Shown here piece after piece: positions 1,953 to 42,521 of a stretch of 43,475 nucleotides of DNA. The DNA comes from a virus, in the IMG/VR virus record IMGVR_UViG_3300020348_000003, positions 1 to 43,475 of that record; one strand, given 5' to 3'. A program made the position numbers and the translations under genes. Each line of letters begins with the position of its first letter. Within the stretch, counting starts at the first letter, position 1. The notes beneath the pieces were generated by a model. That model worked only from the letters and a program-made list of their open reading frames with translations, was not told where the DNA came from and did not search any database.

Positions 1953-2321
1953 ATGGGAATTAATTCAACAGAGGTCTCATATGGCTTCGGACAAATGGGT
2001 AGTGTATTTAGTGACGGCACCGGTGCATTAACACCTCCGTCAGGCAAAGTTTTTGTCGCTATTACATTTTTAGCAGATACAGCTTTTAATAGTTCTAATG
2101 GTTTAGTTGCTGATAATGACGTTACTGCAGGTTTAGAATTTATTGGAACAGACACAGCGGCTCATGACACTGTGCTATCGCCAGACCTTGGTGAATCTGG
2201 CGCAGGTGGTACTGTAATAGACAACGGTAATACTTTTCCAAAAGGAGTAACTATTTACGGTAGATGGACTAAGATTACTAATAACAGGTCTACACCATTA
2301 ATAGCTTATATTGGTAACTAA
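1953..2321 (+). CDS. Hypothetical beta-rich phage structural protein
   Basis: This 122-residue, Gly/Thr-rich, acidic protein has no signal peptide or membrane helix. It is predicted by eye to be mostly beta, with a C-terminal strand pair 'KGVTIYGRWTKI' and 'STPLIAYIGN'. That ending is typical of small jelly-roll-like marine phage virion proteins. It lies one base downstream of the holin gene and overlaps the LamG gene by one base (TAATG). I do not recognise a named family. A decoration or appendage subunit is the most likely role, on context alone. Confidence 0.7.
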   Translation: MGINSTEVSYGFGQMGSVFSDGTGALTPPSGKVFVAITFLADTAFNSSNGLVADNDVTAGLEFIGTDTAAHDTVLSPDLGESGAGGTVIDNGNTFPKGVTIYGRWTKITNNRSTPLIAYIGN

Positions 2322-3085
2322 TGTTAGGTTTAGGAGCTAGTTTACTATCGCCATATGTAGAAGGTGCAATACCTTATTCAAACACTAAGTCTCTATCTTT
2401 AGATGGTACTAACGATTATGTAGATACTAACTACACATCTAACACTTTATTCAGAGATAGTTTTAGTTTTAGTGTTTGGGTGAAACCTGATGACGGTCAT
2501 CCAAGCGCGTTTAAAACTATATTAGGAGTTGAAACAGGAGCTAACGCGGATATGGTTGAATTATATAATTCAACAGATGGCGCAATAGGTTTTAATCATA
2601 TTTCTAATGGTGCTCTTAACATAGTCGCTACTGGCGCTGGTGTTTTTACTGACGGCGCTCAAAGCGATTTTAAACATATAGTTGTTACAGAAGAAAAAGT
2701 ATCTAGTGGAAACGCTACTACAAAAATATATGTAAACGGCGTTGATACTGCTCATACAGCTTTAGGCGGCGGATTTTTAGTTATTAGTGAAGCTAATTTT
2801 AATGCTTTTGATCACGGAGGTTTAGAACTAAATATTGGAGCAACTAACGATGATGGCACTCAAGATCAATTTTACGATGGCTTAATAGATGAAGTTGCTA
2901 TCTTTAATAAAGTACTTTCTTCTAGTGAAGTTACGGCTATATATAACAGCGGCGCACCAAAAGATGAAAGTGCTCACGATGGTCTTTTATTATACTACAG
3001 ATTTGAAGATGATGTGACCGACACCGCTGGAACAAGTGACGGAACAAATAACGGAGCTACGTTTAGCTCAACAGTACCTTCTTGA
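2321..3085 (+). CDS. LamG / concanavalin A-like domain protein
   Basis: This 254-residue protein is almost entirely one laminin-G-like jelly roll. It starts with 'KSLSLDGTNDYVDT' (about residues 23-36), continues with 'FSFSVWVKP' (about 48-56), and ends with the family hallmark 'GLIDEVAIFNKVLSSSEV' (about 187-204) and 'LLLYYRFEDD'. Such domains bind glycans or protein surfaces. In phages they are usually part of tail fibres, head decorations or adhesion proteins. There is no classical signal peptide, which fits a virion protein rather than a secreted one. It overlaps its upstream neighbour by one base. The domain call is firm; its place on the particle is inferred. Confidence 0.8.
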   Translation: MLGLGASLLSPYVEGAIPYSNTKSLSLDGTNDYVDTNYTSNTLFRDSFSFSVWVKPDDGHPSAFKTILGVETGANADMVELYNSTDGAIGFNHISNGALNIVATGAGVFTDGAQSDFKHIVVTEEKVSSGNATTKIYVNGVDTAHTALGGGFLVISEANFNAFDHGGLELNIGATNDDGTQDQFYDGLIDEVAIFNKVLSSSEVTAIYNSGAPKDESAHDGLLLYYRFEDDVTDTAGTSDGTNNGATFSSTVPS

Positions 3086-24321: not shown

Positions 24322-25388
24322 GTAAAGAAGCAGCAAGCAGAACTTTAGATTACGCTATTGATTCTCAAATATTAGACAGAGTAAAAAGAGCTGAGCGACC
24401 TATTGGCTTAGAAGATCTAACTACAACTAGAGGAGAGCTACTAACGGGTGTAGGCACGATGATAAACGAGAAAGGCAAAACTCTTCAAGCGGGTGAAGCT
24501 GCTTGGGATGTAGGCTTTTCTAAAATGGGTGATAGAGGCCAATGGGCTTCTGGCGAGCTGTATGACGAGTTTCAACGAATGGAAGCTGGCTACAAAGAAG
24601 AGTACGTAAAAGCCATAGCTATTGGTGATACTGCTGCTGCTGCTAGAATGTTACAAGATCAAGCTCAAAGAGCTAAATCTCTACAAGGCTGGACCGACGT
24701 AATGCAACAAGCTAAAGAAGTAAACGATGGTGTAGGCTGGAGCGCTAGCCTTTCACCTGAAAATAAAGCTATATTAAGCGCGTTAGCTTCTAATGATGGT
24801 AGCGCTAAGCTTGTTATGACACCAGACGGTGAGATGGGGTTTGAAATAAATGGAAGAGTTGTTACTAAACGAGAAGTTGACGAGATGGTGGCTAGTGGTA
24901 TTGCGCCTACAGCTAGATCAAACAAGTGGTTTGAAACTCTTGACAGTGACGAGATGAGGGGTTACCAAGGGTTAAGTTTCAATCAAGCAAAAGCTGCAAA
25001 TGAAGCTTTATCTCAGATTAATAAAAACAACATTGGAGGCTATATTGACGATGCTTGGGCTGGATCTACTAGTTTTAAAGATGATTTTTTAAATGGTGAC
25101 CACGACTTTGGATTAAAAGACGACGCTGGTGCTGATAGAGATTTACAAGCTGGTGAGCTAGTATATCCTCTTAGCGAAGCTAACGAACAGTTGGCTGATA
25201 AAGATAGCGATGGCACAGTTACTGCTGAAGAAATAATAGCTTTCTTTAAAACGCCTGAAGGCTACGAAGCAGGTAGAAGAGAGATAGCAGCTTATATGGC
25301 TGCTAAACGTTTTCAGGTATGGACTAATGGTCATAATGCCTATGTAACTAAGAAGTCTCAAGCACTAGACGAGAAGAAGAATAACTAA
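24318..25388 (+). CDS. Internal virion-associated protein with an EF-hand loop
   Basis: This 356-residue, mostly helical, acidic protein lies between two probable ejection proteins, overlapping both (ATGA upstream, one base downstream). Residues 294-305 read D-K-D-S-D-G-T-V-T-A-E-E, a textbook 12-residue EF-hand calcium loop with D at 1, 3 and 5, G at 6, and E at 12. It is flanked by helical residues. A single loop suggests calcium-stabilised folding or a switch on entering the cell, but this is inference. The rest of the protein matches no family I know. Confidence 0.65.
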   Translation: MSKEAASRTLDYAIDSQILDRVKRAERPIGLEDLTTTRGELLTGVGTMINEKGKTLQAGEAAWDVGFSKMGDRGQWASGELYDEFQRMEAGYKEEYVKAIAIGDTAAAARMLQDQAQRAKSLQGWTDVMQQAKEVNDGVGWSASLSPENKAILSALASNDGSAKLVMTPDGEMGFEINGRVVTKREVDEMVASGIAPTARSNKWFETLDSDEMRGYQGLSFNQAKAANEALSQINKNNIGGYIDDAWAGSTSFKDDFLNGDHDFGLKDDAGADRDLQAGELVYPLSEANEQLADKDSDGTVTAEEIIAFFKTPEGYEAGRREIAAYMAAKRFQVWTNGHNAYVTKKSQALDEKKNN

Positions 25389-28300
25389 TGAACGAATTAC
25401 AAAAGTTATATGACACCCTTGTAAAAGAAGGGCTGTATACAAGAACGTTTGAAGATTTTCAAAGGCAGTATTTAAGGCCAGATTATCAGCAAAAAGTTTT
25501 TGATACTGTAAGTCAATATGAATTATATAGCAGTGATTTTGAGTCGTTCTTAACTACATACTCACCTGACGGTATCACTGTATCTCCAGAGCCAGAAGCT
25601 CAACAAGATAAGCAGCCTGAAGCGCCAGAGCGCCAGATATTACAAGGTGAAGAAGCTTTAATAGCAGCAAATAACTTACAGCACCAAGACTTTTGGAGTG
25701 AAAATTCTAACTTTGGTGACAGTGCTCAAGACTATAATTTAGACTCTGAAGGTAACTATACAAGCGATAATTATTCTTTACGTAAGAAAAGACTAGACGC
25801 TGCAGGTATAGCTGCAACAGATCCAGGTCTTAGACAACAAGATAACCAAGGATACTTTGTGTGGGAAGCTGATGGATTAGATCCTTACGAAGCTGCTAAA
25901 CTAGGCTCACAATTATCTCTTCAAACAGGCCAAATAGATTTTGCATCTAAAGAAATTGTAGATGTAGAAGAGGAGACAGACACTTTTAAATCAAGGCAAA
26001 ACAATATTAATCGTGAAAAAGCTTCTCTTGCGGTAGACGGTTATTCTGTAGACGACATTACGTATACCACGAACAACAAAACTGGCGTAGCATACGCTAT
26101 TCAAAAATCAGTTGTTGACAGAGATTACGAAGGAGGTTATGAGCAACTTATGTTTGACATAACGCTTGGTGATAAAAAAGGTTGGGAAAGTATAGAAGGT
26201 GTTTACCTAGCAGACGAAAATAGAAAGACTGAAAACGAAGAAATAAATCGTGCTCTTGAAGTTCAGAGAAAACAACAGAAACTAGATCAAGATCAAGAGC
26301 AAGCTAAAAAAGATTCTGCTGCTGCTCAATTACCTACTATAACTTTAGATCAATTATCTAAAAAAGAAAACTGGGCTAAAAGAGCTTTTAACGAAGGCGA
26401 TTTAAAAAGACTTGGTATTGAAGTTTTAGATTTAAACGACGAGTTTTTAGCTGGAGAGCTTACTTTTAAATCAGTTAAGACTGGTGAAGAATTTAAAATA
26501 TCTACAGGTGGCGGTGTTAAACAAGATGACGTTGACAATTTAAACGCGTGGTTAAAAGAAAACGCGTTTGATTATACTTCTGCTCTTGAGCAAAGCCTTG
26601 AGCTGTCTAGACCAACTGAAGAACAAGATGTTGAGCTAGAAAATAAAGCGTCTGATATTGCGGAGAATGGCATGTCTAGCTTTAAAGCTGAAGAAAAAGA
26701 CAGACAATTCATTGAACAAGTTGAAAGTGATGCTAAAGTAAGATTAGCTATAGCAAACATGATTAAGCGTTATGATGAGTACGCTCTAGCAACAGAAGGT
26801 GTAGATGCTTTAACGCAAAAAGAAAAACAGCAATTATATAGAGAAGGCTTAGATGCTATAACAGGATCTGATGTTGCGCTTACTTTACTTAATCAAGGTT
26901 ACGACGCTTACGACGAGTTTGAAAACATCGATAGAAGTAATCCTGATCTTATATCTGAAATATATAACGATCTTTACTCGTATTACAAAGGCACGCAAAT
27001 ACAAAAAAACTTACAAGAAAATATAAGAGCAAAGTCTAGTACTTGGTATAGCGAAGAAAAATTTAAAGAAGATCTTGAAGAAGACGCCGCAGAAAGATGG
27101 GAAACTCTTGATGACACAATCAAAAACAAAATAGGCGAGCTTCAGGAAATAAAAGGTGAAACTGAAAATAACGGTAGACAGCTTAACAAAGCTATAGAGC
27201 ACTTAAATAATTTAAGATTTGATGGTTTAACTTTTGAAGAAGCTGTTGAAAAAATAACTAGTAAGGAATATAAAACTAAAGAAGAGCTTGACGCTGCTGA
27301 AAAAGAACTTGAAAGAATAAAAGGTATATACAGAACCGCGTATGATAACGTGCAAGTATATATGGATGCTGCTAAAGTAAACTTACAAGTTACTAGAAAC
27401 ATACAAAATGAGCTAGAAGATCTTGAGCTTGAAGCAGAAGACCTGTCTTGGTACATGGAGACTATTGACGACAGGAATGGTTTAGCTTTTTTAGCCGCTG
27501 ACGCCCTTGCAAACGCTGTTGTAGAGCTTGGTCAAGGCTTTATAGAGTTAGGCGGTATTGTAGGAGATGTTTCTATAGGCATTACTTCTTACCTAGCAGG
27601 TAAAGTTTTTGGAGAAGAAACTGATGAAGCTATTGACGACTGGTACGCTGAAACAATGTTCGGTGACAGAAGAGTTCAAAACTGGATTGATGAGTTTCAA
27701 CAAGAAGGTGTTATGCGTTATGGCTTTGGCGCTTTAATTACTGGAGAGTTTGGTGAATCTTACGACGTAAGGCAAACGGTGTCTATGAGTGACATAGACA
27801 GCTTTAGTGATTTTGGAGAGTGGGCTTTAATGACTGTAGCTCAACAGGCACCTCAGTTAGCTTTGATGTTAGCTACTAGCGGTATAGGTAGTGTAACTAC
27901 TAGAGGAGCTGTAGCTGCAGGTAAAATGACCGCCGCGAGAGCTAATCAAGTTGCTGAGATATTATCTCTAAGCACTATGGGTGCTAACGCTATGGGTAGT
28001 AAATACAAAGAGCTTAGAGAAGCTAACGAATTGTATATAGAGAGCGGAGGCTTATACGGTGAAGAATATAATCTAGCGCAAATGCTTCTTGCTTCAGGAT
28101 TATCAGGTGCTGCAGAAGCTTTATCTGAAAGAATTACTCTTAAAATCCTTAAAGGTACTGGGAGCGGTATTACTGGTTCATTTAGTACTGCTGCTAGAAG
28201 AAAGTTTCAAAGTGATTTAAAAGACGGTTTTGGTACTGCGTTAAGAAGATCTATGTTTGGTGACACCGCTAAGTCTGCTTTCCAAACCGTTAGGTATCAA

Positions 28301-31300
28301 TTAGGAGAAATAGCTGAAGAAAGTATAACAGAAGGTTTTGCCGAAATAGGTAACAACTTAACAGATATTTTTGTATTAGGCAAGAAAGATGTAGGTGTAT
28401 TTGATGGAGTACCTGAAGCAGTTGCCACTGGATCACTAATAGCTACTAGTATAAAAACACCACAAGTTTTTGCTAAAGTATACGCACCTTTTAAAAGCAT
28501 AGACACGCAAAGAACTTTAGCTAATTTAGACGTTAGAGAAGAAAACGTATTAGCTAAAATTAAAAAATTAGCAAACGATCCTAATGCAGATCAAGCTTTA
28601 CTAGAAGAAGCTAGAGATGAGCTAGCTGCTATACATGTAGAGAAGGCAGAGGCTATAGAGCTAGATATAAAGAGAGTAGATCTACTTACTAATCCAGAAA
28701 AGAAGCTTTTAATAAAAGCTGACAAAGTTCAAAGAAAAGCTAAACAAGACGCTTTAGATATACAGCAAGATAATAATCTTACGGAAGCTGAGAAAAAACA
28801 AAAACTAGAAGAGCTCGCTAAAACGTTTGAGTCTCAACAAAAGATTAAAAATGAGATATTAGAAAGATATCCTCCTAATGTAGTAGATAAACGCTACAAG
28901 TCTTACATGGACTCAGTTAAAAGAAGAGCTGCGGACTTTACTAAGCGTACTGGAACAGAAGTAGTAATAAAAGAAGGTAATACAAAACAGTTTGAAGAAT
29001 ACTTAGACAGCGATCAAATAAAAAACCAAGAAGGTATAGATGAAGCAATAGCTGATAAACAAGCTATACTAGATAATGAGAACTCTACTGAGCAAGAAAA
29101 ATCAGATGCTCAAGGTGATATAGATAATTTAAGAAACTTTGCTAAACAAGGTAGTAGAGAATATGGCGCTATGCTACCTATTATTGAAGGCGGTAAGCTT
29201 GTTAGATACGAAATGTTTGTTAATAAACAAACTTCTGTAACTGATGGTAAATTTAATACAGGATCTCACGAGTTTATGCATATTCTTTTGCATAATACTA
29301 TACGTCAAAACCCTGTTACTAGAGGTATATTAGGCCAGAATTTATTAGACATCGCTATGTCTGACAAAGCTAAATGGAAAAGCGAAGCTGCTAAAAATAA
29401 TTTTGAGCGTACTATAGCTTCGTATGATGGTACTCAAAGAGGTGAGGAGATACTTACTAATTTATCTCAAGCTATACAAGATGGTGATGTAAGTTTATCT
29501 GCTGATACGTTTGGTGGTAGAATTAAAGACAGTATACAAAGACTTATTCAGCGAACAGGTTTAGGTAGAGATATAAGATTTGATACTGCTGATGATGTTA
29601 GAAGGTTTGTTGTAAATTATTCAGATTCTATTAAGAAAAATTATACTAATAGAACTTTGCAAAGGTCTGCCGCTAAAGGTATTACTGGTAGATTAAAATC
29701 AAAAGGACCTGTACAAGTTTCTTTAGCTCAGTCTCAGGCCGCTATACAAGAAGCTAGGCAGAGAACTAGTTTTTCTAGAGCAATAGAAGATGCTATAAGA
29801 TCTAAGCCAGATTTAATGCAAGAGTTTGATCAGTTTGTTAAGAACGAAGATGGAACTCCAAAGTACGATAGCTTAGACTCGTGGCGAAGATCAATAGACT
29901 TTAGCAACGCACTATTAAAAGTGGTTGAAACACCTTTGTTAGACGGCTTAGTACAACAAGGTATGACAGAGTTAGGTTTGCCACCTCAAGCTTTGCGAGA
30001 GTTTACTAGATCTGCAAAAGAAAATATACAAGAAAGATTACTTACAAACTTTGATCCTACTAAAAACGATAGTTTATTCGGTTGGTTAACAGGCGTATCT
30101 GGTGGTGCTGGTAGATCTATTATATATAGAGCTAAAGGTGACGTTATGAAAGCTTATAAAGAGTCTGGCCAAGCTGAAACAACTTCGCTAGACGCTATGC
30201 TTGCAGAAGACTCTAATGTTACTTTTGCTGAAACAGTATCAGGTACTGGAGCAGATGCTTCTATTGATATAAAAGAAGTTGAAGGAGCTACTGTATTTTT
30301 AGAAAGCATTAATGCTTCGCCAGAGCTAGTTACAGCTATAAATAAAGAAGTACAGAAAGCTGGTGTAGATATTCAAGGCTTAACTTATAAAGATGTAAAG
30401 AAATTAGTTGTAGGTCCTAACGTGCCTTTAAAAGGTATTATGGATCTAGTAGGTAACGAGTTTGGCATATCTACTAAAAAAATAAACGAAAACAAAGATT
30501 TGACTAGCGCTGAAAGATCTAGTGCTCAAACTTTTGTAAACTCATTTGCACAAGAGCTAATTGACATGCTTCCTGAAGGTCAAACTCAAAGCGGCCAAGC
30601 TACAGGTCTACCAAGAGCGTTGTTAAATAAGTTCTACGTAAAAGGTGATAGACTTACTATGAAGTCTGGCGCAACTGCAGCAGGTAAGTTTTCTCAAGAC
30701 AAAAGACAAGATATAAGTATTGAAGAGTTTAAAGCAGCGTTTGGTATAAATCCTGATGGCAGCTTTATAAACAACAAAAAGTTTGATGGCGCACTTAGAG
30801 CTATAGCTGTTCAAGCAGCTATGATTAGTGCTAATCAAACTATGAGACAGCAAGCTATACAAAACGAAACTAATCCTTTATCTGTTGTAGCTACACTAGG
30901 TGAAGGTAGAGGTAGTCTTATGTTCTCTAAAAAAGGTATTGGTAGCTTAGGTAAGCTGTTAAGATCTGAGATAGACCAAGGTATATTACTAGGTTTATCT
31001 GGTCAATTATCACAAAATATATTATCACCCATAACAGTTATTGAGCAAGGTGGTAATGTAGCTGCAAAAGAGCAGTACTCTAAAGAAAATATAAGAGGTG
31101 CTATTGTAGCTACATATGGTTCGTTTTTTAACGAAACTCAAATAGATAATTTAGTAAATGCGATACACGCTATAGCTGTTAGTAATAAAATACCGAAAAC
31201 TGATAAAGGTAAAGTTACTAGACAAGAGGCTATACAAACAGAAATAAATAAATTAGTCGTAGATAACGACACTAAAGTTAAGCTATACTTTGGCACTAAT

Positions 31301-34300
31301 GTTGATACTGTATCTTTGTACAACGATCCAGTTAAAGTAAAAGAGCATCAAGGCCACGCTATGGCCTTCATGAGGCAAGAAGTTGCTAGAATAGACGAAG
31401 AGTCTGCTAACGAGGCAGAAGCTGGTTTTGCGATAATGAAGTCAATGACTATGCTAAAGCAGCAGATGTCTACCGCTGGTAAGATCGGAGGTAAAAGAGC
31501 TCAGCTATTTACAGGTAGATTGTTTTTAGAGCAAGTACTAGAAAATAATCCAGATCTAAAGTTTAGTATTAAAGAAACTAAACAAGGCGTTAGTATAGAC
31601 TTTAGTAAGCCTATTACTTACAAAGGTCAAACCGTAAGCATTACTCAAGCAGACTTATCTTTAGATGCACAGTCAGGACCTGCTGTGCTAGATCAAGTTG
31701 TAGACGACTACGTTAACGGTACCAATACTGTAGACGAAAGAAGCAAGGGTGTCCTAGAGGCTCGAGAGCATTTAAATAGATTTGTCGAGTTTCACGTAAA
31801 TTTATACAACAACGGTATAACTGGCTCTGAAGATCTTCAAATGGCAGCTGCTAACTTGTTATCTAACATGAACCCAAGCTTAGCTAGAGCTGCTCAGCCT
31901 AAGTACATAGGCGAAGACTTATTGCCAGAAAACTGGAAACAAGAGACTAAAGGCATGAACGCTAAGCAGCTTCGTGACTATAAGCGTAAGCTAAGGCAGA
32001 GAAACAAAGGAAAGTTAAAGCCTGTATACGAGCACATGCAGCCAAGAGTTAACGTTGTGTTAGGTCTATTTGATGCTCATCTTTTTGGAGGTGGTGTGTC
32101 AGATGTAAACGTTCAGTTTGCAAACTACGATGTTGCTATTATATCTGATAGCATGGACAAAGGTCTTAAAGAAGCCAAGCTTAATAACTCTTTAGCTGAA
32201 AACCAAAGCTTAACAGATCCTTCTTGGATGAGATACTACAACAATGCTACTGTAGCGACTGGTAAAATGGTTGGTCTGCTAGGCATTGGAGCTAATACAG
32301 ACGTTAATGTAGGTCAAGGACACGCTGCTGTTTCAGAGATTATAAATAGAAAACAGCAGGCTATAAAAGAAGCAGCGGTAGCTAATAAGCTTTTATTTTC
32401 TAAAAGCGCTCGTGAAGGTAGAAAAGGCGCTAGCATTTGGGACTTTGATGATACGTTAGCTACTACAAAGTCTAATGTTATATTTAATAAAGAAGGTCAA
32501 ACTAAAATAGTTAGCGCTGAAGACTTTGCAAAGCAAGGTGCTGATCTAGTAGCTGAAGGTTGGACGCCAGACTTCTCAGAGTTTAACAAAGTAACGGGAG
32601 GTCAGCCTGGCCCTATGTTTGACAAAGCTTTAGAAAGAGCTAAGAAGTTTGGAACTAAAGATACTTTTATACTAACAGCAAGAGCTCCAGAATCTCAACC
32701 AGCTATTAAAGAGTTTTTAGATGCAATAGGTTTAAATATACCTCTTAAAAACATTGTTGGTTTAGGTAACTCAACTGGCGCAGCTAAAGCTAGTTGGATA
32801 GCAGAGAATATTATTGCAGAAGGTTATAATGATATAGCATTTGCTGACGACGCTTTGCAAAACGTAGACGCAGTACAAGAGCTGTTAGATCAATACGATG
32901 TTAAAAGCAACGTTCAACAAGCTAAATTAAACTTTAGTAGAAGAGGACCTGTAATTTTTGCAGAGATACTTGAAGAAGGCGCAGCAGATCTTGACTCAAC
33001 TTTTAATATTATACTTGAAGAAACTAAAGGCGTAGGTAGAAATAAAAGATTTTCTGCAGCTAAAGCTAGAAAACGAGGTAAAAACAAAGGTAAGTTTAAA
33101 TTCTTTTTACCACCTTCAGCAGAAGATTTAAAAGGTCTTATATATCCTTTCTTAGGTAAAGGTAGAGTTGGTGAAAAACATCACGCTTGGTTTAAAGAAA
33201 ATATATTTGATCCGTTTGCTAGAGGTGTTAGACATTTAGATATGGTAACTCAAGCTATAGCAAATGACGTTAAAGAGCTTAAAAAAGCTTTGCCTAATGT
33301 TAAGTCTAGGCTTAGAGCAAATATACCTAATTCAGAGTTTACATACCAAGACGCTATTAGAGTATACAACTGGAACCGTATGGGTGTTGATATACCTGGT
33401 TTGTCTCAAGCTGATTTAACTAACTTAGTTAACATTGTAAAAGGTGACGCTGACTTAATGGCGTATGCTGACGGAATTAACGCTATAACACAACAGTCTG
33501 TTCAAGGCGATGTAAAGCCTGGCAACGACTGGACTGCTGGTACTATAGAATCAGACGTAGCAGACGCTATGAAAGATGCTAGAAAAATATACTTAACTGA
33601 GTTTATTGAAAATGCTGACATAGTATTTTCTGAAGAAAACTTAAATAAGATAGAAGCTGTATTTGGTAGTAATCATAGAGAAGCTCTTGAAGATATGTTG
33701 TACCGCATGAAGACTGGTAGTACCAGAAACTTTGGTAGCAACAGGTTAATGAATAGCTTTACGCAGTGGTTGAACGGTTCTGTAGGTGCAACGATGTTCT
33801 TTAACGCTAGATCAGCAATGCTCCAGATGATATCTAATATTAACTTCATAAACTGGCACGACAATAACCCACTTAAAGCTGCAGCTGCATTTGCAAATCA
33901 AAAGCAATATTGGACTGACGTGTCTATGATATTTAACTCACCGTGGTTAAAACAAAGAAGAGGTGGTATTGGTACTGACTTAAACGCGGCTGAGTTATTA
34001 AGAGAGTTGCAAGGCGCTAAAAATCCTATGAAAGTAGCTATAGCCTTTATGCTTAAGCTAGGTTTTACACCTACTCAAATAGCTGATAGTTTAGCTATTG
34101 CTACTGGTGGTGCTACTATGTACCGAAATAGAATTAAAACATATCAAGATCAAGGTTTAAGTAAGCAAGAAGCTGAGGCAAAAGCTTACGAAGACATGAG
34201 AGAGATTGCTGAAGAAAGTCAGCAGTCTACAAGAGAAGATAAAATATCTCAACAACAAGCTTCTCCTCTTGGTAAGATTATACTAGCGTTCCAAAACGTA

Positions 34301-35320
34301 ACAATGCAGTATAACAGGCTTATGAAGCGAGCTGCGCAAGATTTAGTTAATGGTAGAGGTGATATTAAATCTAACATGTCGAAGATTATTTACTACGGCA
34401 TGGTGCAGAACTTAATATTCTACGGACTGCAGCAAGGTTTATTTGCAGCTTTATTTGGTGATGACGAAGAAGATCAAATAGATGAAGACGAAAAAGCCAA
34501 CTTGCTAAACGGTATGCTTGATAGTTTGCTAAGAGGTGCTGGTATAGGAGGAGCTGTTATATCTACAACTAAAAATGTTATACTAGAATTTATAGATCAA
34601 AAAGAAAAGCTTGATGATGACAAGTATTACACTGATTTTGAAGAAGGACCAATTATATTAGAAGCTCTTAATATATCTCCTCCAATAGGCATTAAAGCTA
34701 GAAAACTAGCTAGTGCTTTAAGAACTTGGCACTACAACAGAGACGTCATTAATCAAATAGATAAAACAGACATTGACAATCCAATGTATGAGTCGTTGTT
34801 TAATGCAACAGAAGCTGTAACAAACATACCTCTTCACAGGCTTTATAATAAGTTTATGAACATAAGAGAGTCTATGGATTCTGATCATGAAACATGGAAG
34901 CGAGTAGCTATGTTCTTAGGTTGGAGCCGCTGGAGTTTTGGTATAGAGAACCAAGATGTTATGACAGCGCGTGATGAAGTTAAAGAAATAAAAGCGGCAG
35001 AAGCAGAAGAAAGAAGAGAGCAAAAGAAAAGAGAAAGAGAAATTGAAAAAGCTGAAGAAGAACGTCAAGTTATTGAAGATAACAAGCTTGATCAAGACGA
35101 AAAGCGAGAAGAAGGTGCTACTGAAGTTCAGTGTGCTGCGGTTAGTGGATCAGGTAAGCGTTGCTCTAACATGGCTTTACCTGGTGAAGACTTTTGCACA
35201 GTACACATGCCTGTACCGCAGCAACAAAATGAAGTGCAGTGTTCACATATAAAGAAAGACGGTAAACGTTGTAAAATGAAAACTAAAAACAAATCAGGAA
35301 AATGTTATTACCACGATTAA
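25388..35320 (+). CDS. Giant multi-domain (polyvalent-type) virion protein: zincin, HAD phosphatase, zinc knuckles
   Basis: This 3310-residue protein is probably packed in the particle and injected. The N-terminus has two short repeats of the 'GLYTRTFEDFQRQY' kind. Residues of about 697-1000 hold hydrophobic, membrane-active-looking helices, followed by long charged coiled coils. 'HEFMH' at 1294-1298 is a zincin motif with a possible distal ligand in 'GEEILTN'. 'WDFDDTLATT' (D2352 and D2354) is HAD motif I. 'FILTARAPES' and 'FADDALQNV' fit HAD motifs II and IV, implying phosphatase or nucleotidase chemistry. About residues 2960-2990 carry 'ASPLGKIILAFQNVTMQYNR', a segment widespread in large marine phage proteins. 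The chain ends in two Cys-His knuckles spaced CX9CX10CX2H, starting at C3249 and C3285. It follows two likely ejection genes. No RNA polymerase DxDxD motif was found. Confidence 0.8.
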   Translation: MNELQKLYDTLVKEGLYTRTFEDFQRQYLRPDYQQKVFDTVSQYELYSSDFESFLTTYSPDGITVSPEPEAQQDKQPEAPERQILQGEEALIAANNLQHQDFWSENSNFGDSAQDYNLDSEGNYTSDNYSLRKKRLDAAGIAATDPGLRQQDNQGYFVWEADGLDPYEAAKLGSQLSLQTGQIDFASKEIVDVEEETDTFKSRQNNINREKASLAVDGYSVDDITYTTNNKTGVAYAIQKSVVDRDYEGGYEQLMFDITLGDKKGWESIEGVYLADENRKTENEEINRALEVQRKQQKLDQDQEQAKKDSAAAQLPTITLDQLSKKENWAKRAFNEGDLKRLGIEVLDLNDEFLAGELTFKSVKTGEEFKISTGGGVKQDDVDNLNAWLKENAFDYTSALEQSLELSRPTEEQDVELENKASDIAENGMSSFKAEEKDRQFIEQVESDAKVRLAIANMIKRYDEYALATEGVDALTQKEKQQLYREGLDAITGSDVALTLLNQGYDAYDEFENIDRSNPDLISEIYNDLYSYYKGTQIQKNLQENIRAKSSTWYSEEKFKEDLEEDAAERWETLDDTIKNKIGELQEIKGETENNGRQLNKAIEHLNNLRFDGLTFEEAVEKITSKEYKTKEELDAAEKELERIKGIYRTAYDNVQVYMDAAKVNLQVTRNIQNELEDLELEAEDLSWYMETIDDRNGLAFLAADALANAVVELGQGFIELGGIVGDVSIGITSYLAGKVFGEETDEAIDDWYAETMFGDRRVQNWIDEFQQEGVMRYGFGALITGEFGESYDVRQTVSMSDIDSFSDFGEWALMTVAQQAPQLALMLATSGIGSVTTRGAVAAGKMTAARANQVAEILSLSTMGANAMGSKYKELREANELYIESGGLYGEEYNLAQMLLASGLSGAAEALSERITLKILKGTGSGITGSFSTAARRKFQSDLKDGFGTALRRSMFGDTAKSAFQTVRYQLGEIAEESITEGFAEIGNNLTDIFVLGKKDVGVFDGVPEAVATGSLIATSIKTPQVFAKVYAPFKSIDTQRTLANLDVREENVLAKIKKLANDPNADQALLEEARDELAAIHVEKAEAIELDIKRVDLLTNPEKKLLIKADKVQRKAKQDALDIQQDNNLTEAEKKQKLEELAKTFESQQKIKNEILERYPPNVVDKRYKSYMDSVKRRAADFTKRTGTEVVIKEGNTKQFEEYLDSDQIKNQEGIDEAIADKQAILDNENSTEQEKSDAQGDIDNLRNFAKQGSREYGAMLPIIEGGKLVRYEMFVNKQTSVTDGKFNTGSHEFMHILLHNTIRQNPVTRGILGQNLLDIAMSDKAKWKSEAAKNNFERTIASYDGTQRGEEILTNLSQAIQDGDVSLSADTFGGRIKDSIQRLIQRTGLGRDIRFDTADDVRRFVVNYSDSIKKNYTNRTLQRSAAKGITGRLKSKGPVQVSLAQSQAAIQEARQRTSFSRAIEDAIRSKPDLMQEFDQFVKNEDGTPKYDSLDSWRRSIDFSNALLKVVETPLLDGLVQQGMTELGLPPQALREFTRSAKENIQERLLTNFDPTKNDSLFGWLTGVSGGAGRSIIYRAKGDVMKAYKESGQAETTSLDAMLAEDSNVTFAETVSGTGADASIDIKEVEGATVFLESINASPELVTAINKEVQKAGVDIQGLTYKDVKKLVVGPNVPLKGIMDLVGNEFGISTKKINENKDLTSAERSSAQTFVNSFAQELIDMLPEGQTQSGQATGLPRALLNKFYVKGDRLTMKSGATAAGKFSQDKRQDISIEEFKAAFGINPDGSFINNKKFDGALRAIAVQAAMISANQTMRQQAIQNETNPLSVVATLGEGRGSLMFSKKGIGSLGKLLRSEIDQGILLGLSGQLSQNILSPITVIEQGGNVAAKEQYSKENIRGAIVATYGSFFNETQIDNLVNAIHAIAVSNKIPKTDKGKVTRQEAIQTEINKLVVDNDTKVKLYFGTNVDTVSLYNDPVKVKEHQGHAMAFMRQEVARIDEESANEAEAGFAIMKSMTMLKQQMSTAGKIGGKRAQLFTGRLFLEQVLENNPDLKFSIKETKQGVSIDFSKPITYKGQTVSITQADLSLDAQSGPAVLDQVVDDYVNGTNTVDERSKGVLEAREHLNRFVEFHVNLYNNGITGSEDLQMAAANLLSNMNPSLARAAQPKYIGEDLLPENWKQETKGMNAKQLRDYKRKLRQRNKGKLKPVYEHMQPRVNVVLGLFDAHLFGGGVSDVNVQFANYDVAIISDSMDKGLKEAKLNNSLAENQSLTDPSWMRYYNNATVATGKMVGLLGIGANTDVNVGQGHAAVSEIINRKQQAIKEAAVANKLLFSKSAREGRKGASIWDFDDTLATTKSNVIFNKEGQTKIVSAEDFAKQGADLVAEGWTPDFSEFNKVTGGQPGPMFDKALERAKKFGTKDTFILTARAPESQPAIKEFLDAIGLNIPLKNIVGLGNSTGAAKASWIAENIIAEGYNDIAFADDALQNVDAVQELLDQYDVKSNVQQAKLNFSRRGPVIFAEILEEGAADLDSTFNIILEETKGVGRNKRFSAAKARKRGKNKGKFKFFLPPSAEDLKGLIYPFLGKGRVGEKHHAWFKENIFDPFARGVRHLDMVTQAIANDVKELKKALPNVKSRLRANIPNSEFTYQDAIRVYNWNRMGVDIPGLSQADLTNLVNIVKGDADLMAYADGINAITQQSVQGDVKPGNDWTAGTIESDVADAMKDARKIYLTEFIENADIVFSEENLNKIEAVFGSNHREALEDMLYRMKTGSTRNFGSNRLMNSFTQWLNGSVGATMFFNARSAMLQMISNINFINWHDNNPLKAAAAFANQKQYWTDVSMIFNSPWLKQRRGGIGTDLNAAELLRELQGAKNPMKVAIAFMLKLGFTPTQIADSLAIATGGATMYRNRIKTYQDQGLSKQEAEAKAYEDMREIAEESQQSTREDKISQQQASPLGKIILAFQNVTMQYNRLMKRAAQDLVNGRGDIKSNMSKIIYYGMVQNLIFYGLQQGLFAALFGDDEEDQIDEDEKANLLNGMLDSLLRGAGIGGAVISTTKNVILEFIDQKEKLDDDKYYTDFEEGPIILEALNISPPIGIKARKLASALRTWHYNRDVINQIDKTDIDNPMYESLFNATEAVTNIPLHRLYNKFMNIRESMDSDHETWKRVAMFLGWSRWSFGIENQDVMTARDEVKEIKAAEAEERREQKKREREIEKAEEERQVIEDNKLDQDEKREEGATEVQCAAVSGSGKRCSNMALPGEDFCTVHMPVPQQQNEVQCSHIKKDGKRCKMKTKNKSGKCYYHD

Positions 35321-36345
35321 GTTTATTATTAACCTTACTATTTAGCTGTACATTACTGCAAGCTCAAGAGCTAAAGAAAGCGTTTAAGTTTTCTACGTTC
35401 TACGCAGCTGTTAACGGAGGTAACTCTGTATCAGATCAGACTATATACTCTGTTACTGACGGGTTAACTCAAGAGACTATAGCAACACCTTTTGACTATA
35501 GTTTATCTATGGGAGTGCGTAAGATCGCTAGGTTTGGTTATGAAAACAGAGCTAATGCTTTCTATGACGGATCAGAAACATCTTGGTCTGCTGACGCTAA
35601 TATAGGTAAGCGTAACGGTATAGAGTTTCTTGGAGAAGTTACATACGAAAGGCAACAAGGTAGAGAGTTTTTTAACCAGCACCACTTTTTTCGTTACATC
35701 GGAGACAAACTTATGGCGAAGGTTGAGTACCTTGAAGACGGGTTTGCAGACATTGAGTACTTTGAAGGATCACAGCGATTTCGACTTAAGCTCGGTAAGA
35801 AGTTTTCTTTGCACGCGGGTGTTGCACAGCGTATCTCAGAACCTTACGGATATGATCCACTTGAAGAGTGGAAGCTGGCAACAGGAGACATACACTACAC
35901 TTACCTCGCAATTGAAGAAGGATATTCACACAACCTTACTACAGGCGAGTACCTCGCTCCTGACGGGACAGTCGTTGCAACAAACACTGAGGTCTGGGAG
36001 GCAGTCACTATCCCTAACATCTTATCTGAATACACTGCTAGAAAAAGAAGTGAACTCGCTCGTCAATGGAATTACTCAGTGGTTGCCGGGTTCGACTTCT
36101 ATCACTTTACAGACGATTTCTGGTTCCACACATGGGGAAATATTTTACCCTATCATTACGACACTGGAGGTGAGTATATGTATCACAATACAGTAGGTGG
36201 TCAATGGCTTGACTACTCAGCTGGTTTAATATATGGACACAAATTTAACAAACACATAGGAGTATTCCTTGAAGGTAGGTATTATAAGTACTGGAATAGA
36301 GAGTGGTACAACTTTAAGTGTGGAGCAAACTATGTAATCTTTTAA
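35302..36345 (+). CDS. Exported beta-barrel-like outer-membrane or surface protein
   Basis: This 347-residue protein begins with a signal peptide (residues 1-21, two Arg/Leu runs then 'SCTLLQA') probably cleaved before Gln22, the flavobacterial pattern. A Cys at 16 does not sit in a good lipobox. The mature part alternates aromatic and polar residues in strands ('FKFSTFYAAVNGG', 'GDKLMAKVEYLEDGFADIEY', 'SAGLIYGHKFNKHIGVFLEGRYYKYW') and ends in '...YVIF', the C-terminal aromatic typical of outer-membrane barrels. The first 19 bases overlap the 3' end of the giant gene, encoding its last zinc knuckle in another frame. Codon use from about 35640 to 36130 is richer in G/C-ending codons than neighbours, hinting at separate origin. 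Envelope location is inferred. Confidence 0.65.
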   Translation: MLLPRLSLLLTLLFSCTLLQAQELKKAFKFSTFYAAVNGGNSVSDQTIYSVTDGLTQETIATPFDYSLSMGVRKIARFGYENRANAFYDGSETSWSADANIGKRNGIEFLGEVTYERQQGREFFNQHHFFRYIGDKLMAKVEYLEDGFADIEYFEGSQRFRLKLGKKFSLHAGVAQRISEPYGYDPLEEWKLATGDIHYTYLAIEEGYSHNLTTGEYLAPDGTVVATNTEVWEAVTIPNILSEYTARKRSELARQWNYSVVAGFDFYHFTDDFWFHTWGNILPYHYDTGGEYMYHNTVGGQWLDYSAGLIYGHKFNKHIGVFLEGRYYKYWNREWYNFKCGANYVIF

Positions 36346-36348
36346 GAT

Positions 36349-36633
36349 ATGGCAAAGCAAATAGGTGAGGATACTAAAGTAACACTAGACCTCAAGACAA
36401 TCGGTATGGCATCAGCAGGGTTAGCTGCTTTAATTGGTATGTACTTTACGCTACAAGCTGATATAGCTTTAGCAAAGGAACTGCCTGAACCACTACCACC
36501 AGACGTAACTCGTATGGAGTTTGATATGAAAGATAAACTAGTGCGTCAGACTATTATGACTACACAAGAAGATGTGTCTGAGCTCAAAGAAGATCTTGAT
36601 CGTATTGAAGAAAAAATCGATAAACTAAACTAG
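36349..36633 (+). CDS. Membrane-anchored coiled-coil protein
   Basis: This 94-residue protein has one hydrophobic helix at about residues 17-36 ('TIGMASAGLAALIGMYFTLQ') and a Pro-rich hinge ('ELPEPLPPDV'). It ends in a heptad-patterned C-terminal helix at about 68-94 ('EDVSELKEDLDRIEEKIDKL'). The N-terminus is short and charged, so the coiled coil probably faces the periplasm. The pattern resembles inner-membrane spanins or virion-associated anchors. It lies between two exported proteins, three bases from the first and two from the next. I cannot decide between spanin-like and scaffold-like roles. Confidence 0.6.
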   Translation: MAKQIGEDTKVTLDLKTIGMASAGLAALIGMYFTLQADIALAKELPEPLPPDVTRMEFDMKDKLVRQTIMTTQEDVSELKEDLDRIEEKIDKLN

Positions 36634-36635
36634 TC

Positions 36636-37004
36636 ATGGAAGAGACAATGAACTTTAGGACAGTGTTAGCATACATATTCTTAATGCTATGTATGTTTGT
36701 AGCTGGCACGGCTTTTGGGCAGAACATGTGCAATAGTGATATCTGTGTTGTACAGTTTAATGCCAGTTGGAACGCGAGTAATAGTGTAGATTATCTTGAC
36801 AAGCTAACTGACTGTGAGGTTATGAACGTCAATATAGACGAGGGAACTTATCAGTCTGACTACGAGATCGTAGTAGTACCTACTATTATAGTCTTCAACG
36901 GTAAAGAAGTTGAAAGGTTTCAAGCAAACATCATGATGCAAATGGAAGCTACGCGCAAAGAAGTGCAGAACGTAGTTGATGAAATTATATATAGTGATTT
37001 TTAA
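36636..37004 (+). CDS. Exported thioredoxin-fold protein lacking the CXXC active site
   Basis: This 122-residue protein has a signal peptide; the better start is the second Met (M5, position 36648), giving 'MNFRTVLAYIFLMLCMF' and a likely cut before Gln29 ('GTAFG/Q'). The mature part has the thioredoxin pattern: a 'VVQFNASW' strand, then W45-N-A-S-N where thioredoxins have WCGPC, so both catalytic Cys are Asn. The cis-Pro segment 'VVVPTIIVFNGKEV' (P82) and a C-terminal helix follow. Other Cys (32, 37, 60) are not in CXXC. It is probably a periplasmic binding or scaffolding protein, not a redox enzyme. It ends one base before the T9SS-tagged gene. Confidence 0.7.
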   Translation: MEETMNFRTVLAYIFLMLCMFVAGTAFGQNMCNSDICVVQFNASWNASNSVDYLDKLTDCEVMNVNIDEGTYQSDYEIVVVPTIIVFNGKEVERFQANIMMQMEATRKEVQNVVDEIIYSDF

Positions 37005-39302
37005 ATGAAGAAGTTAGGATACATATTTGTGATACTGTTTTGGCTGCTAGCTAGTACATTGTTAGGACAGGGCAGTTGGTTAGATATTACTGTGCAAACA
37101 GATAACTACGGCGGCGAAACATCGTGGGAGATATTAAACGAAGATGAAGAAGTTGTCGCAGTTAATCCTCCATACCAAGACAATAGCTTATTAACTGTAA
37201 CAAAGTTCTTACCTGCTGGTGATTACCAGTTTGTCATGATGGACGCTTTTGGTGATGGTATTTGCTGTGGCTTTGGTGAAGGTTTTTATAGATTACATAA
37301 TGCCTGTGGTTTAGATACAGCTAATTATGAGTTTAACACAGCGGTTGATACTATAGACTTTACGCTTAATCCTTGTTTACCGCTAGTACCAGGTTGCACT
37401 AACGATCTAGCAAACAACTATAATCCATGGGCTACTGTTGAAGACGGTACGTGTAATGTTATTGAGTGCGACTCAGCTGAGACGTTGGTATCTATGGAAT
37501 TAACGTTAGACACTTGGCCTAACGAAACTGGTTTTACTTTAGTTGATTTAGCTGTTGGTCAGTTTTATGAGCAGGTGTTTCCTGGTGAGTACAACTTTGG
37601 TGATCAGCTCGTTACATATACATACGACTTTTGTGTATCGCTAGGCTTTGAGTTAATACTAGTAGACACGTTTGGTGACGGGCTTAACGGCTCAGCTTCG
37701 GGTGGTGAAGATGGCGCTTGTATTATTACAGCTTGTGATAGTGTTATATGGGAGCTAGAAGATTTAGCATTTGCAGAGTTTGACGGTGGCACAATGTACT
37801 CTGGAGCTATATTTACTGAGCCATGCCCACCTGCACCTGACGTACCTGGTTGTATGGATGATGACTATGTAGATTATAACCCACTAGCAACAGTGCAAGA
37901 TACTTGTGAAACACCACACGTATGGGGCTGCACAAATCCTGAGGCGTTTAACTACGATAGCTTAGCTACTATATCAGACAACAATAGCCCTTGTGCTATT
38001 AACGTTACTATTGAAGATGACGGCGGTGATGGTTGGGGTAACTCAAAGCTAGGTATGATACAAGGCGATCAGCAATGGTTATTTACTATGGGTCCTGGTT
38101 CGTTTGAACAGTCGTGGACTATTAACTTAGACTCTGACGCAGAGGTAAAGCTTTATTATTTTCAACAAGGTAATGCTCAACAGTCAGCACAAGAGCTAGC
38201 GTTTCAAACGTTACACAACTCCGTGTTGATCACTAACGAGGCTGGTGATACACTATTGTCTGAAGGTACAAACCCTTTCTTTGATAACGGGCAAGGCGCG
38301 TTACAGCCATTTGATGAACCTAACTGGACTACGTACAGCTTTATACCTTATTGCGGTGATAGCTGCGAGCCGTTTAGCTATGGCTGTACAGATGAGCTAG
38401 CACAGAACTACAGCGCTGAAGTAAACACAGAAGACGGTAGCTGCTACTATCAAGCTGGTTGTACTCAAGCAGGTTACTTAGAATATTATACACAAGGCTA
38501 TGAAGCTGATTACGATAACGGAGACTGTCAGACGTTAGCAGTATTTGGCTGCATGGACGAACAAGCATTTAACTATAACCCAGAAGCAAACGTCGATAAC
38601 GAGGGTTGTATACCTGTAGTGTTAGGCTGCACGAACCCACTTGCTTTCAACTACAACTCGGCCGCTAATACTGACGATGATAGCTGTATACCTTTCGTCT
38701 ACGGTTGCACGGACGCAACAATGTTTAACTATGATCCGGAAGCTAACGCTGAAGATGGTAGCTGTATTCCTTACATTTATGGCTGTACTGACAGTAGCGC
38801 CTTTAATTATGATCCAGCTGCTAATACTGACAATGGCTCGTGCGAGGAAGTGGTGGTCGACTGTATGGACCCGCTAGCGTACAACTATAACGAGCTTGCA
38901 AACGAACCTGCAGACAATTGTTTATACGACGCCGGTTGTATTGGTGGACCTGGTGAACCATACTGGTTGAATGACTTGTGTTATGCTTGGGTAATTGAAG
39001 CAGATCCATATTGTTGTAGTAATGAGTGGGATAATACTTGTCAAGCAACATATGACTACTGTAGTGTAACAGGTATAGAATCCGTGCTAGCTGGTGATGA
39101 CTTAGTTGTCTACCCAAACCCGGTGGGCAACGTGTTAAACATAAATCAAAACGTTGACGTAGACGTGATCGATTCAAACGGACGTATCATAGTATCTAAA
39201 ACAAATACGAACGCGATAGACGCGTCCCTATGGCCTCCAGGAATACACATGGTACGTATTGTTTGGAACGGTCGCGTTGTTGTCAAGAGAGTTATTAAAT
39301 GA
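37005..39302 (+). CDS. Secreted mosaic protein with T9SS type A sorting domain
   Basis: This 765-residue protein has a signal peptide (residues 1-21, cut before Q22). Two domains follow with calcium-type motifs 'DAFGDGICCG' (80-89) and 'DTFGDGLNG' (221-229), a fold typical of secreted Bacteroidetes proteins. Nine copies of a Cys repeat 'GC(T/M)xxxAxNYxxxAxxxxxxC' lie between about residues 130 and 640. A cysteine-rich segment ('DPYCCSNEWDNTC') follows from about 667. The last 75 residues are a T9SS C-terminal domain with 'VVYPNPVGNVLNI' (about 701-713), a 'DSNGRIIVSK' strand, and a final 'VVVKRVIK'. In Bacteroidota this signal sends proteins through the outer membrane and often fixes them to the surface. 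Its presence beside exported phage proteins suggests a phage-encoded host-surface protein rather than a virion fibre, but both remain possible. Confidence 0.75.
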   Translation: MKKLGYIFVILFWLLASTLLGQGSWLDITVQTDNYGGETSWEILNEDEEVVAVNPPYQDNSLLTVTKFLPAGDYQFVMMDAFGDGICCGFGEGFYRLHNACGLDTANYEFNTAVDTIDFTLNPCLPLVPGCTNDLANNYNPWATVEDGTCNVIECDSAETLVSMELTLDTWPNETGFTLVDLAVGQFYEQVFPGEYNFGDQLVTYTYDFCVSLGFELILVDTFGDGLNGSASGGEDGACIITACDSVIWELEDLAFAEFDGGTMYSGAIFTEPCPPAPDVPGCMDDDYVDYNPLATVQDTCETPHVWGCTNPEAFNYDSLATISDNNSPCAINVTIEDDGGDGWGNSKLGMIQGDQQWLFTMGPGSFEQSWTINLDSDAEVKLYYFQQGNAQQSAQELAFQTLHNSVLITNEAGDTLLSEGTNPFFDNGQGALQPFDEPNWTTYSFIPYCGDSCEPFSYGCTDELAQNYSAEVNTEDGSCYYQAGCTQAGYLEYYTQGYEADYDNGDCQTLAVFGCMDEQAFNYNPEANVDNEGCIPVVLGCTNPLAFNYNSAANTDDDSCIPFVYGCTDATMFNYDPEANAEDGSCIPYIYGCTDSSAFNYDPAANTDNGSCEEVVVDCMDPLAYNYNELANEPADNCLYDAGCIGGPGEPYWLNDLCYAWVIEADPYCCSNEWDNTCQATYDYCSVTGIESVLAGDDLVVYPNPVGNVLNINQNVDVDVIDSNGRIIVSKTNTNAIDASLWPPGIHMVRIVWNGRVVVKRVIK
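37392..38921 (+). repeat. Nine copies of a Cys-bounded GC(T/M)..A.NY repeat in the secreted protein
   Basis: Each unit is about 22-26 residues, opens with GC (DC in the last), has a central 'A(F/Y)NY(N/D)' core and an 'A(T/N)' plus acidic loop, and closes with Cys. Units start at about G130, then two further copies, then a near-continuous run from G460 (38382) to C639. The first three are separated by larger domains. The paired Cys suggest disulfides, implying folding outside the cytoplasm. The DNA copies have diverged, so the array is old rather than a recent slippage product. Confidence 0.75.
39075..39299 (+). other. T9SS type A C-terminal sorting domain (coding)
   Basis: Residues 691-765 of the secreted protein show the block order of the type A domain: 'YPNP' opening with a hydrophobic run, a middle strand 'VDVIDSNGRIIVSK', a 'DASLWPPGIHMVRI' turn and strand, and a basic 'VVVKRVIK' end. 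The family consensus has the same spacing, with Gly-Xaa-(Y/H) in the turn. It is intact and ends at the stop codon, which overlaps the next ATG. Confidence 0.8.
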
Positions 39303-41448: not shown

Positions 41449-41712
41449 ATGGCATTTAAAATGAAAAAAGCTGGAGTTAAACAGATTATATCTGAACTCA
41501 ATAAAGCTTCTAAACTACATAAAGGACAAGCTGAAAAGCTAGAAAAAATGATTAGCTCTAAAAACTCGCCGTTAAAAGGTAAGATAAGTGGGCCTTGTAA
41601 AACCGCTGCTAAACGCAAGTTTAAAGTATGGCCTAGCGCTTATGCTTCTGGTTGGGGTGTACGCTGCACTAGAGCTGGTGGGCCTAGTAAAATGGGTAAA
41701 AGTAAAAAGTAA
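41449..41712 (+). CDS. Small basic protein with WPSAYASGW motif
   Basis: This 87-residue protein has a helical basic first half ('AFKMKKAGVKQIISELNKAS') and a C-terminal 'AAKRKFKVWPSAYASGWGVR' motif (about residues 56-75). I recall that motif from small basic proteins of marine phages and giant viruses. It contains 'NSPLKGK', echoing the N(S/N)P(L/F) tags of neighbouring genes. Its stop overlaps the PAP2-like ATG by one base. Nucleic-acid binding is likely from charge; its role is unknown. Confidence 0.65.
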   Translation: MAFKMKKAGVKQIISELNKASKLHKGQAEKLEKMISSKNSPLKGKISGPCKTAAKRKFKVWPSAYASGWGVRCTRAGGPSKMGKSKK

Positions 41713-42521
41713 TGGCTGATTTATTTAAGGACTTTAATATAAAGCCGCTTATGAAACGTAAGCCGCCAAGTGATAACTCGTTTGATACTAATCAAGAGAT
41801 CAAACAGTTAACTAAAATTCCTATAAATAAAAAGTTTATTACAGAAAAAGACGACATACAAGGTACTTTTAAAAAAGTAGCTAAGTCTGCTGGCGTAGAA
41901 TATCCTAAAGAATTAGTTAGCCAATTAATTAAAGACTCTAGTAAAACTATACTTAAACTAAAAAAACATTTTAATAGACCTAGACCTAAAGTATTAGCAA
42001 AAAAATCTAATATAAAACTAGAAACTGTTGAAATGGCTTCTATGAAAACACCATCGTATCCTTCAGGACATTCTGCTCAAGGAGTTTTAATAGGTGAAGC
42101 TTTAGCTGATATGTATCCTAAAGCTGCTGCTAAGTTTAGAAAGGCTGGCAAAGATATATCTCGTAGTAGAAACGTAGCTAGAGCTCATTATAAGTCTGAC
42201 TCAAAGTTTGGAGAAGATTTAGGTATGCAAATGTATAAGCATTACAAAGGTAAATCACCTTTAACTAAAAAACCTAAAGGCGCACCTGACTGGCATGACT
42301 CTGATGCACCTGATGCTAAAGGTAAGTTTAGAGATTTGTCAGCAAGTGGTTTAGCTAGCTGGTTAATTAAAAGTAGACGTGGTAACTTGTCTAGAATTAT
42401 AAGTAGCTTAAACCAGCAGATCGTATTTAATCGTAAGAAAAATCCTAGCTATGCTTCTAAGATGCGTAAGACTCAAGACATAGTTAGAAAAAGATTAGGC
42501 AAAAAGAAAGATGGCAAGTAA
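41712..42521 (+). CDS. Soluble PAP2-type acid phosphatase with a second basic domain
   Basis: This 269-residue protein carries all three PAP2/class A acid phosphatase motifs in order: KX6RP (K84 with R91-P92, or K82 with R89-P90), PSGH at 117-120 (in 'SYPSGHSAQ') and SRX5HX3D (S152, R153, H159, D163). The active-site histidine and aspartate are intact. There are no membrane helices, unlike lipid phosphatases of the family, so it is probably a soluble or virion-borne phosphatase. A second region (about 193-262, 'WHDSDAPDAKGKFRDLSAS') is a basic domain I do not name. It overlaps the next gene by 11 bases. Substrate is unknown. Confidence 0.75.
   Translation: MADLFKDFNIKPLMKRKPPSDNSFDTNQEIKQLTKIPINKKFITEKDDIQGTFKKVAKSAGVEYPKELVSQLIKDSSKTILKLKKHFNRPRPKVLAKKSNIKLETVEMASMKTPSYPSGHSAQGVLIGEALADMYPKAAAKFRKAGKDISRSRNVARAHYKSDSKFGEDLGMQMYKHYKGKSPLTKKPKGAPDWHDSDAPDAKGKFRDLSASGLASWLIKSRRGNLSRIISSLNQQIVFNRKKNPSYASKMRKTQDIVRKRLGKKKDGK

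Follow-up and report, generated by a model that had tools for sequence, protein, structure and literature searches.

A phage-encoded protein with a predicted thioredoxin fold and no catalytic cysteines, and its conserved gene neighbours

A small protein encoded by an uncultivated phage resembles thioredoxin, appears to be exported and seems to carry asparagines where thioredoxins have their catalytic cysteines. What could such a protein bind once outside the cytoplasm, and which of its neighbours would be the partner? To answer this we analyzed the whole 43,475-nucleotide stretch from which it came (IMG/VR record IMGVR_UViG_3300020348_000003, positions 1 to 43,475; hereafter, the window) together with related loci.

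The thioredoxin-fold protein and its NxxN motif

The features of the gene and its product are as follows.

36636-37004, + strand: thioredoxin-fold protein without catalytic cysteines (P0001; hereafter, Trx), 122 aa, ATG start
36636-36722, + strand: predicted signal-peptide region, approximately residues 1-29, with a hydrophobic 19-mer (KD 2.19)
36723-37001, + strand: mature thioredoxin domain, residues 30-122 as modelled (pLDDT 94.8, pTM 0.87)
36771-36782, + strand: N46-A-S-N49, likely at the CxxC position (from profile-profile alignment and NxxN in relatives)
36879-36884, + strand: cis-Pro segment P82-T83, invariant in 221/221 close relatives, with P in 72/72 sequences of the outer set
36915-36938, + strand: RFQANIMM loop, residues 94-101, the putative third edge of the thioredoxin groove

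The gene starts 2 bases after a 94-aa gene (36349-36633), its end directly abuts a 765-aa gene (37005-39302), and the reverse strand of the same interval is interrupted by stops. The 221 unique close relatives, 220 of which carry NxxN and one (L128) NxxK, show that the frame is not open by chance and that the gene is not decaying. dS was computable for two of seven pairs, which gave dN/dS values of 0.004 and 0.032. The observation made in the earlier note at 36636-37004 is confirmed.

The single Trx sequence gave weak evidence for a thioredoxin, matching Pfam PF00085 with E=0.0019 (18.6 bits, under the 23.5-bit cut-off) and TIGR01068 with E=0.00039, far under its cut-off. The family profile gave a clear match to solved thioredoxins (best E=9.4e-7, and 1.5e-7 in another profile run). 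The AlphaFold2 model that we used covers the mature domain and was built from an alignment of 105 sequences; a first model of the full-length protein from 25 sequences (pLDDT 52.8) was set aside. The best PDB matches of the model in Foldseek were thioredoxins (E=1.4e-5), and VIA-align superposed it on a designed thioredoxin (7q3j; Z 11.4, rmsd 1.6 A over 79 residues) and on 7d6l (Z 11.3, rmsd 1.8 A over 85), so the product is predicted to adopt a compact thioredoxin fold. No curated family matched the protein over cut-off and no PHROG or PADLOC match was significant, and BFVD held four unnamed viral proteins with 28-37% identity to it. A hydrophobic 12-mer precedes the domain in 216 of the 217 relatives having at least 25 residues upstream.

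The motif region has the sequence FNASWNASN, and the segment around the cis-Pro is VVVPTIIVF. Residues N42, A43, N46, P82, T83, E91 and R94 are invariant in the 221 close relatives, and N49, Q96 and A97 nearly so; these conserved positions align with what we take to be the substrate-binding segments of thioredoxin. P82 is invariant as a residue, its cis geometry being presumed from sequence. The cysteines C37 and C60 were considered as a structural disulfide, which was rejected as the pair is not fixed among the 221 sequences: 140 have both cysteines, 53 have C60 without C37, three have C37 without C60, and 25 lack both.

The register of the motif was assessed by aligning profiles. In hhalign, FNASWNASN of the main family fell on FWAEWCGPC of canonical thioredoxins (Prob 91.6) with both Asn on both Cys. 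The same placement was obtained for an outer clade (FWA clade, 15 sequences aligned) in which an aromatic residue and Ala still precede the motif, as they do in thioredoxin (FWASFNDDN is one example); here FWASFNDAN fell on FWAEWCGPC (Prob 97.9), again with both Asn on both Cys. The main and FWA clades were joined by hhalign with Prob 99.4. Contrary evidence came from the HMMER alignment to 2vim, which puts a gap just before N46. Compared with thioredoxin, the loop-helix following the motif lacks about 7 residues, and the helix of the model begins already at residue 44. We thus consider it likely, and short of proven, that N46 and N49 sit on the catalytic Cys positions, a register resting on the profile-profile alignments and the FWA clade and not on coordinates.

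The searches for relatives covered 80 of up to 599 stretches each, and some contigs recurred, so counts are given as unique protein sequences. Three of the searches used patterns containing the Asn motif; those based on the 94-aa protein (hereafter, p94) and on a 347-aa protein did not. The search with p94 only, blind to Trx, returned 79 new loci, of which 76 had NxxN and three had no Trx match; in these three the stored contig ends 1-8 bases beyond p94. The outer set of 72 unique Trx sequences, from the 347-aa-protein search (L420-L499) plus L398 and L419, contained NxxN in 36, VxxN in 10, TxxS in 6, a gap at the first position in 10, and others in 10. No CxxC was detected in these 72 sequences, nor anywhere in the domain among the 221 close relatives. 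In total, 256 of 293 unique relatives have NxxN, and none has cysteines at the two positions.

The claims of the earlier note about the protein itself were largely borne out. It had described an exported thioredoxin-fold protein with both catalytic cysteines replaced and the cis-Pro retained, and had proposed a structural comparison with thioredoxin and a survey of relatives. The predicted structure is thioredoxin-like, a hydrophobic export signal is present, and the motif reading, the conservation of P82 and the relatives agree with the replacement. Its suggestion that the fold is kept without redox activity is likewise supported, by the predicted fold and by the absence of the cysteines in 293 relatives, both of which favor a redox-dead protein.

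Gene neighbors and distribution of the module

Three neighboring genes on the same strand recur with Trx to different degrees.

35302-36345, + strand: 347-aa exported protein, a putative outer-membrane barrel (signal peptide, weak beta amphipathicity)
36349-36633, + strand: p94, a 94-aa predicted bitopic inner-membrane protein with a TM at approximately 17-38 (from hydrophobicity and conservation)
37005-39302, + strand: 765-aa secreted Cys-rich protein with a T9SS type A sorting domain (hereafter, cargo), an optional module member

The gene for p94 lies upstream of Trx in 208/208 main-clade and 66/66 outer unique loci with room for it (274/274), at a distance of at most 100 bases in 180 main and 64 outer of those loci. 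The hydropathy of p94 exceeds KD 1.6 in 198 of 218 sequences, with the hydrophobic segment beginning near residue 17; the best window in the p94 of the window phage reaches 1.55, just below that value. A stretch of variable length separates this segment from a conserved one (ELPxP..RMEFDMKDxLxRQTI), which is followed by a putative helix, and L45, P46, E57, M60, K61, D62, R66 and T72 are invariant or nearly so. No significant match to a spanin or holin family was found for p94 in Pfam or PHROG. Given the conserved segment and the constant pairing, p94 is the best candidate ligand of the Trx-fold protein. L424 and L429 each have two copies of the p94 and Trx pair, the second lying downstream of the barrel gene; the two Trx copies are very different, so that a single phage has two divergent pairs.

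The 347-aa family was found near Trx in 126/129 main and 38/38 outer loci with room (164/167). Comparison with Pfam, PHROG and PDB families gave no match for it. Its windowed beta moment was equalled in 26 of 500 shuffles, which is weakly suggestive of a barrel, whereas its lag-2 hydropathy periodicity was equalled in 883 of 1000 shuffles, which gives no support for one. We refer to it as the barrel for brevity, an outer-membrane assignment that is weakly supported.

The cargo protein matched TIGR04183 (E=1e-10, 41.5 bits over a cut-off of 23) and PF18962 (E=6.9e-9), and has 37 Cys and five GCxxxxAxNY repeats. A cargo homologue was detected in 127/129 main-clade loci and in 7/38 outer loci with room on both sides. 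Across whole records, which may be fragments, TIGR04183 was over cut-off in 5/5 main and 0/15 outer ones (one sub-threshold), and locus L316 has the barrel, p94 and Trx without a cargo match in its 8.4 kb. The constant partners of Trx are accordingly p94 and the 347-aa protein, not the Cys-rich neighbor, and the proposal of the earlier note that this neighbor is a dedicated partner is unsupported as stated.

The gene order varies among loci. We observed cargo-barrel-p94-Trx, barrel-p94-Trx-cargo and p94-Trx-cargo-barrel, and in outer loci p94-Trx-barrel or barrel-p94-Trx. In a second clade the whole RFQANIMM loop of Trx is replaced by QAD[LIV]SF, a sequence switch that hints at two partner types. 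Position 64 of p94 seemed to follow the switch, being L in all 127 N-type sequences and N, M or L in the D-type, but with 2-4 independent switches the comparison has little power.

The source record is viral, with the large terminase (TerL), portal and a virion structural protein matching PHROGs 6681, 6547 and 13704. The TerL of the window matched 87 phage records (Flavobacterium, Cellulophaga, Tenacibaculum, Maribacter and one unclassified Caudoviricetes record). Of 20 sampled records, 16 carry its terminase family, three of them with weak matches only, so the module may be common to more than one phage type. Module-bearing contigs reach 147 kb. The module was found here in uncultivated phages only: tblastn against 50,697 phage records, with the window's three proteins (Trx, p94 and the barrel) and four outer queries, detected no match. 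Two TerL-matching phage records were also searched with profiles and yielded nothing, which by itself shows little.

A scan of bacterial genome contigs gave a single match, on a 4.4-kb MAG contig, and the MAG profile search led to L398, whose Trx is 100% identical to one in the IMG/VR contig behind L419. Judged by this identity, the L398/L419 trio, a far relative, is phage sequence in a bacterial MAG bin labelled Maricaulis. The same Maricaulis-labelled MAG includes L161, which carries a main-clade member.

Other genes of the window were noted in passing. A 3310-aa protein (25388-35320) has two short C-terminal Cys/His repeats recognized by eye, with no PHROGs match in its first 871 residues and no Pfam match in its first 1204. 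A PAP2-superfamily-like protein (41712-42521; 25.7 of 27.2 bits, just below the Pfam cut-off) is encoded in the same gene region as the module. Near the contig start, the product of 2321-3085 has a Laminin-G/concanavalin-like domain (PF13385, E=2.8e-19) and is possibly a host-binding virion protein.

Possible roles of the module

We propose, with a probability of about one half, that the exported redox-dead thioredoxin domain binds peptides in the periplasm, as an adaptor within an envelope complex encoded by the phage. The signal peptide would take the Trx-fold protein into the periplasm. There, the old substrate groove, formed by the helix start at N46/N49, the cis-Pro loop and the RFQAN loop, could grip an extended peptide and hold it by hydrogen bonds and not by a mixed disulfide. 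The likeliest ligand would be the conserved juxtamembrane segment of p94, and the complex probably extends to the 347-aa exported protein in the outer membrane.

Other readings were also weighed. The earlier note suggested that Trx may serve its Cys-rich secreted neighbor as a dedicated holdase or binding partner; in this reading, it would keep the T9SS cargo competent for export. The near-constant cargo homologue of main-clade loci fits this, as does the window, where the cargo gene begins directly past the Trx stop; the sparse cargo of outer loci, the lack of TIGR04183 over cut-off in outer records and the L316 trio argue against it, and we consider this role unlikely, although it may still apply within the main clade. 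The barrel-p94-Trx trio could also act in lysis, disrupting the outer membrane in place of spanins; p94 would then sit in the inner membrane, the 347-aa protein in the outer one, and Trx would link them across the periplasm. Consistent with lysis, once overlapping out-of-frame ORFs are disregarded, the + strand ORFs of the window with a signal or TM are a holin and module members only, and the window ORFs yielded no credible o-spanin with a lipobox, the contig being possibly partial. Moreover, in L419 endolysin-like (M15) and holin-like genes come after the trio, and M15 or amidase genes occur in the flanks of 20/44 outer and 25/129 main loci, all on the same strand. However, most main loci have no endolysin nearby, the window may be a partial genome, and p94 resembles no spanin or holin family significantly; we also know of no reason for a spanin to need a thioredoxin fold, which we count against lysis. 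On balance, the lysis role is doubtful.

A further reading has the trio remodelling the host surface without lysis, for superinfection exclusion or receptor masking. Every member looks exported or membrane-bound and the cargo bears a T9SS sorting tail, and such tails elsewhere place proteins on the cell surface; with neither a PADLOC match nor other functional evidence on its side, surface remodelling is rather improbable. Finally, Trx might still catalyse a reaction, using asparagine-based chemistry at the NxxN site; the conservation of N46 (221/221) and N49 (220/221) in close relatives would speak for this. Such catalysis is very improbable because far relatives with V, T, L or a gap at position 46 retain the fold-family match and the gene context.

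The adaptor reading leads to a broader and more speculative idea, which we put forward tentatively and think unlikely to hold as a whole: p94, the redox-dead Trx clamp and the exported beta-barrel might together be a widespread, undescribed trans-envelope machine of phages of marine Bacteroidota, replacing spanins or forming a conduit, sometimes with T9SS cargo. Against the background literature (PMC2757866, considered in part), a phage family with a fixed Asn-x-x-Asn, strongly constrained groove positions and an export signal is unusual, as is a Trx that was never found apart from one small membrane protein where loci had room. The family could offer a minimal natural system for the study of disulfide-free binding in the thioredoxin groove, and it marks an uncharacterized envelope module of uncultured marine phages. 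No description of this Trx family was found in the open-licence PubMed Central literature.

Comparison with known systems

The phage protein shares with thioredoxin (PF00085, TIGR01068) the predicted fold, the cis-Pro-Thr, the strand F-x-A motif and profile homology. It differs in having no CxxC, in the active-site helix shorter by about 7 residues, in its apparent export and in a conserved polar groove.

For the cargo, the nearest precedent is Cryophage, a Bacteroidetes phage reported to encode T9SS type A sorting-domain proteins, and thus phage-encoded T9SS cargo (PMC7468147); the portion of that paper drawn on here makes no mention of thioredoxin, p94 or a barrel.

Thioredoxin is used without its redox capacity in T7 DNA polymerase and in filamentous phage assembly, according to the sections cited (PMC3029385, PMC2896474). 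Those phages borrow the host thioredoxin, whereas here the phage encodes, and would export, a Cys-less version of its own.

The F-plasmid TraF, an exported thioredoxin fold without CXXC, is similar by description and is a precedent for the adaptor reading. In the excerpted account (PMC7555446), it is a periplasmic protein that binds a partner within a trans-envelope machine and is hypothesised to be a chaperone; it has 247 aa, an extra N-terminal TraH-binding domain and a role in conjugation. In contrast, the phage protein is a bare single domain of about 93 residues when mature, with no extra N-terminal domain.
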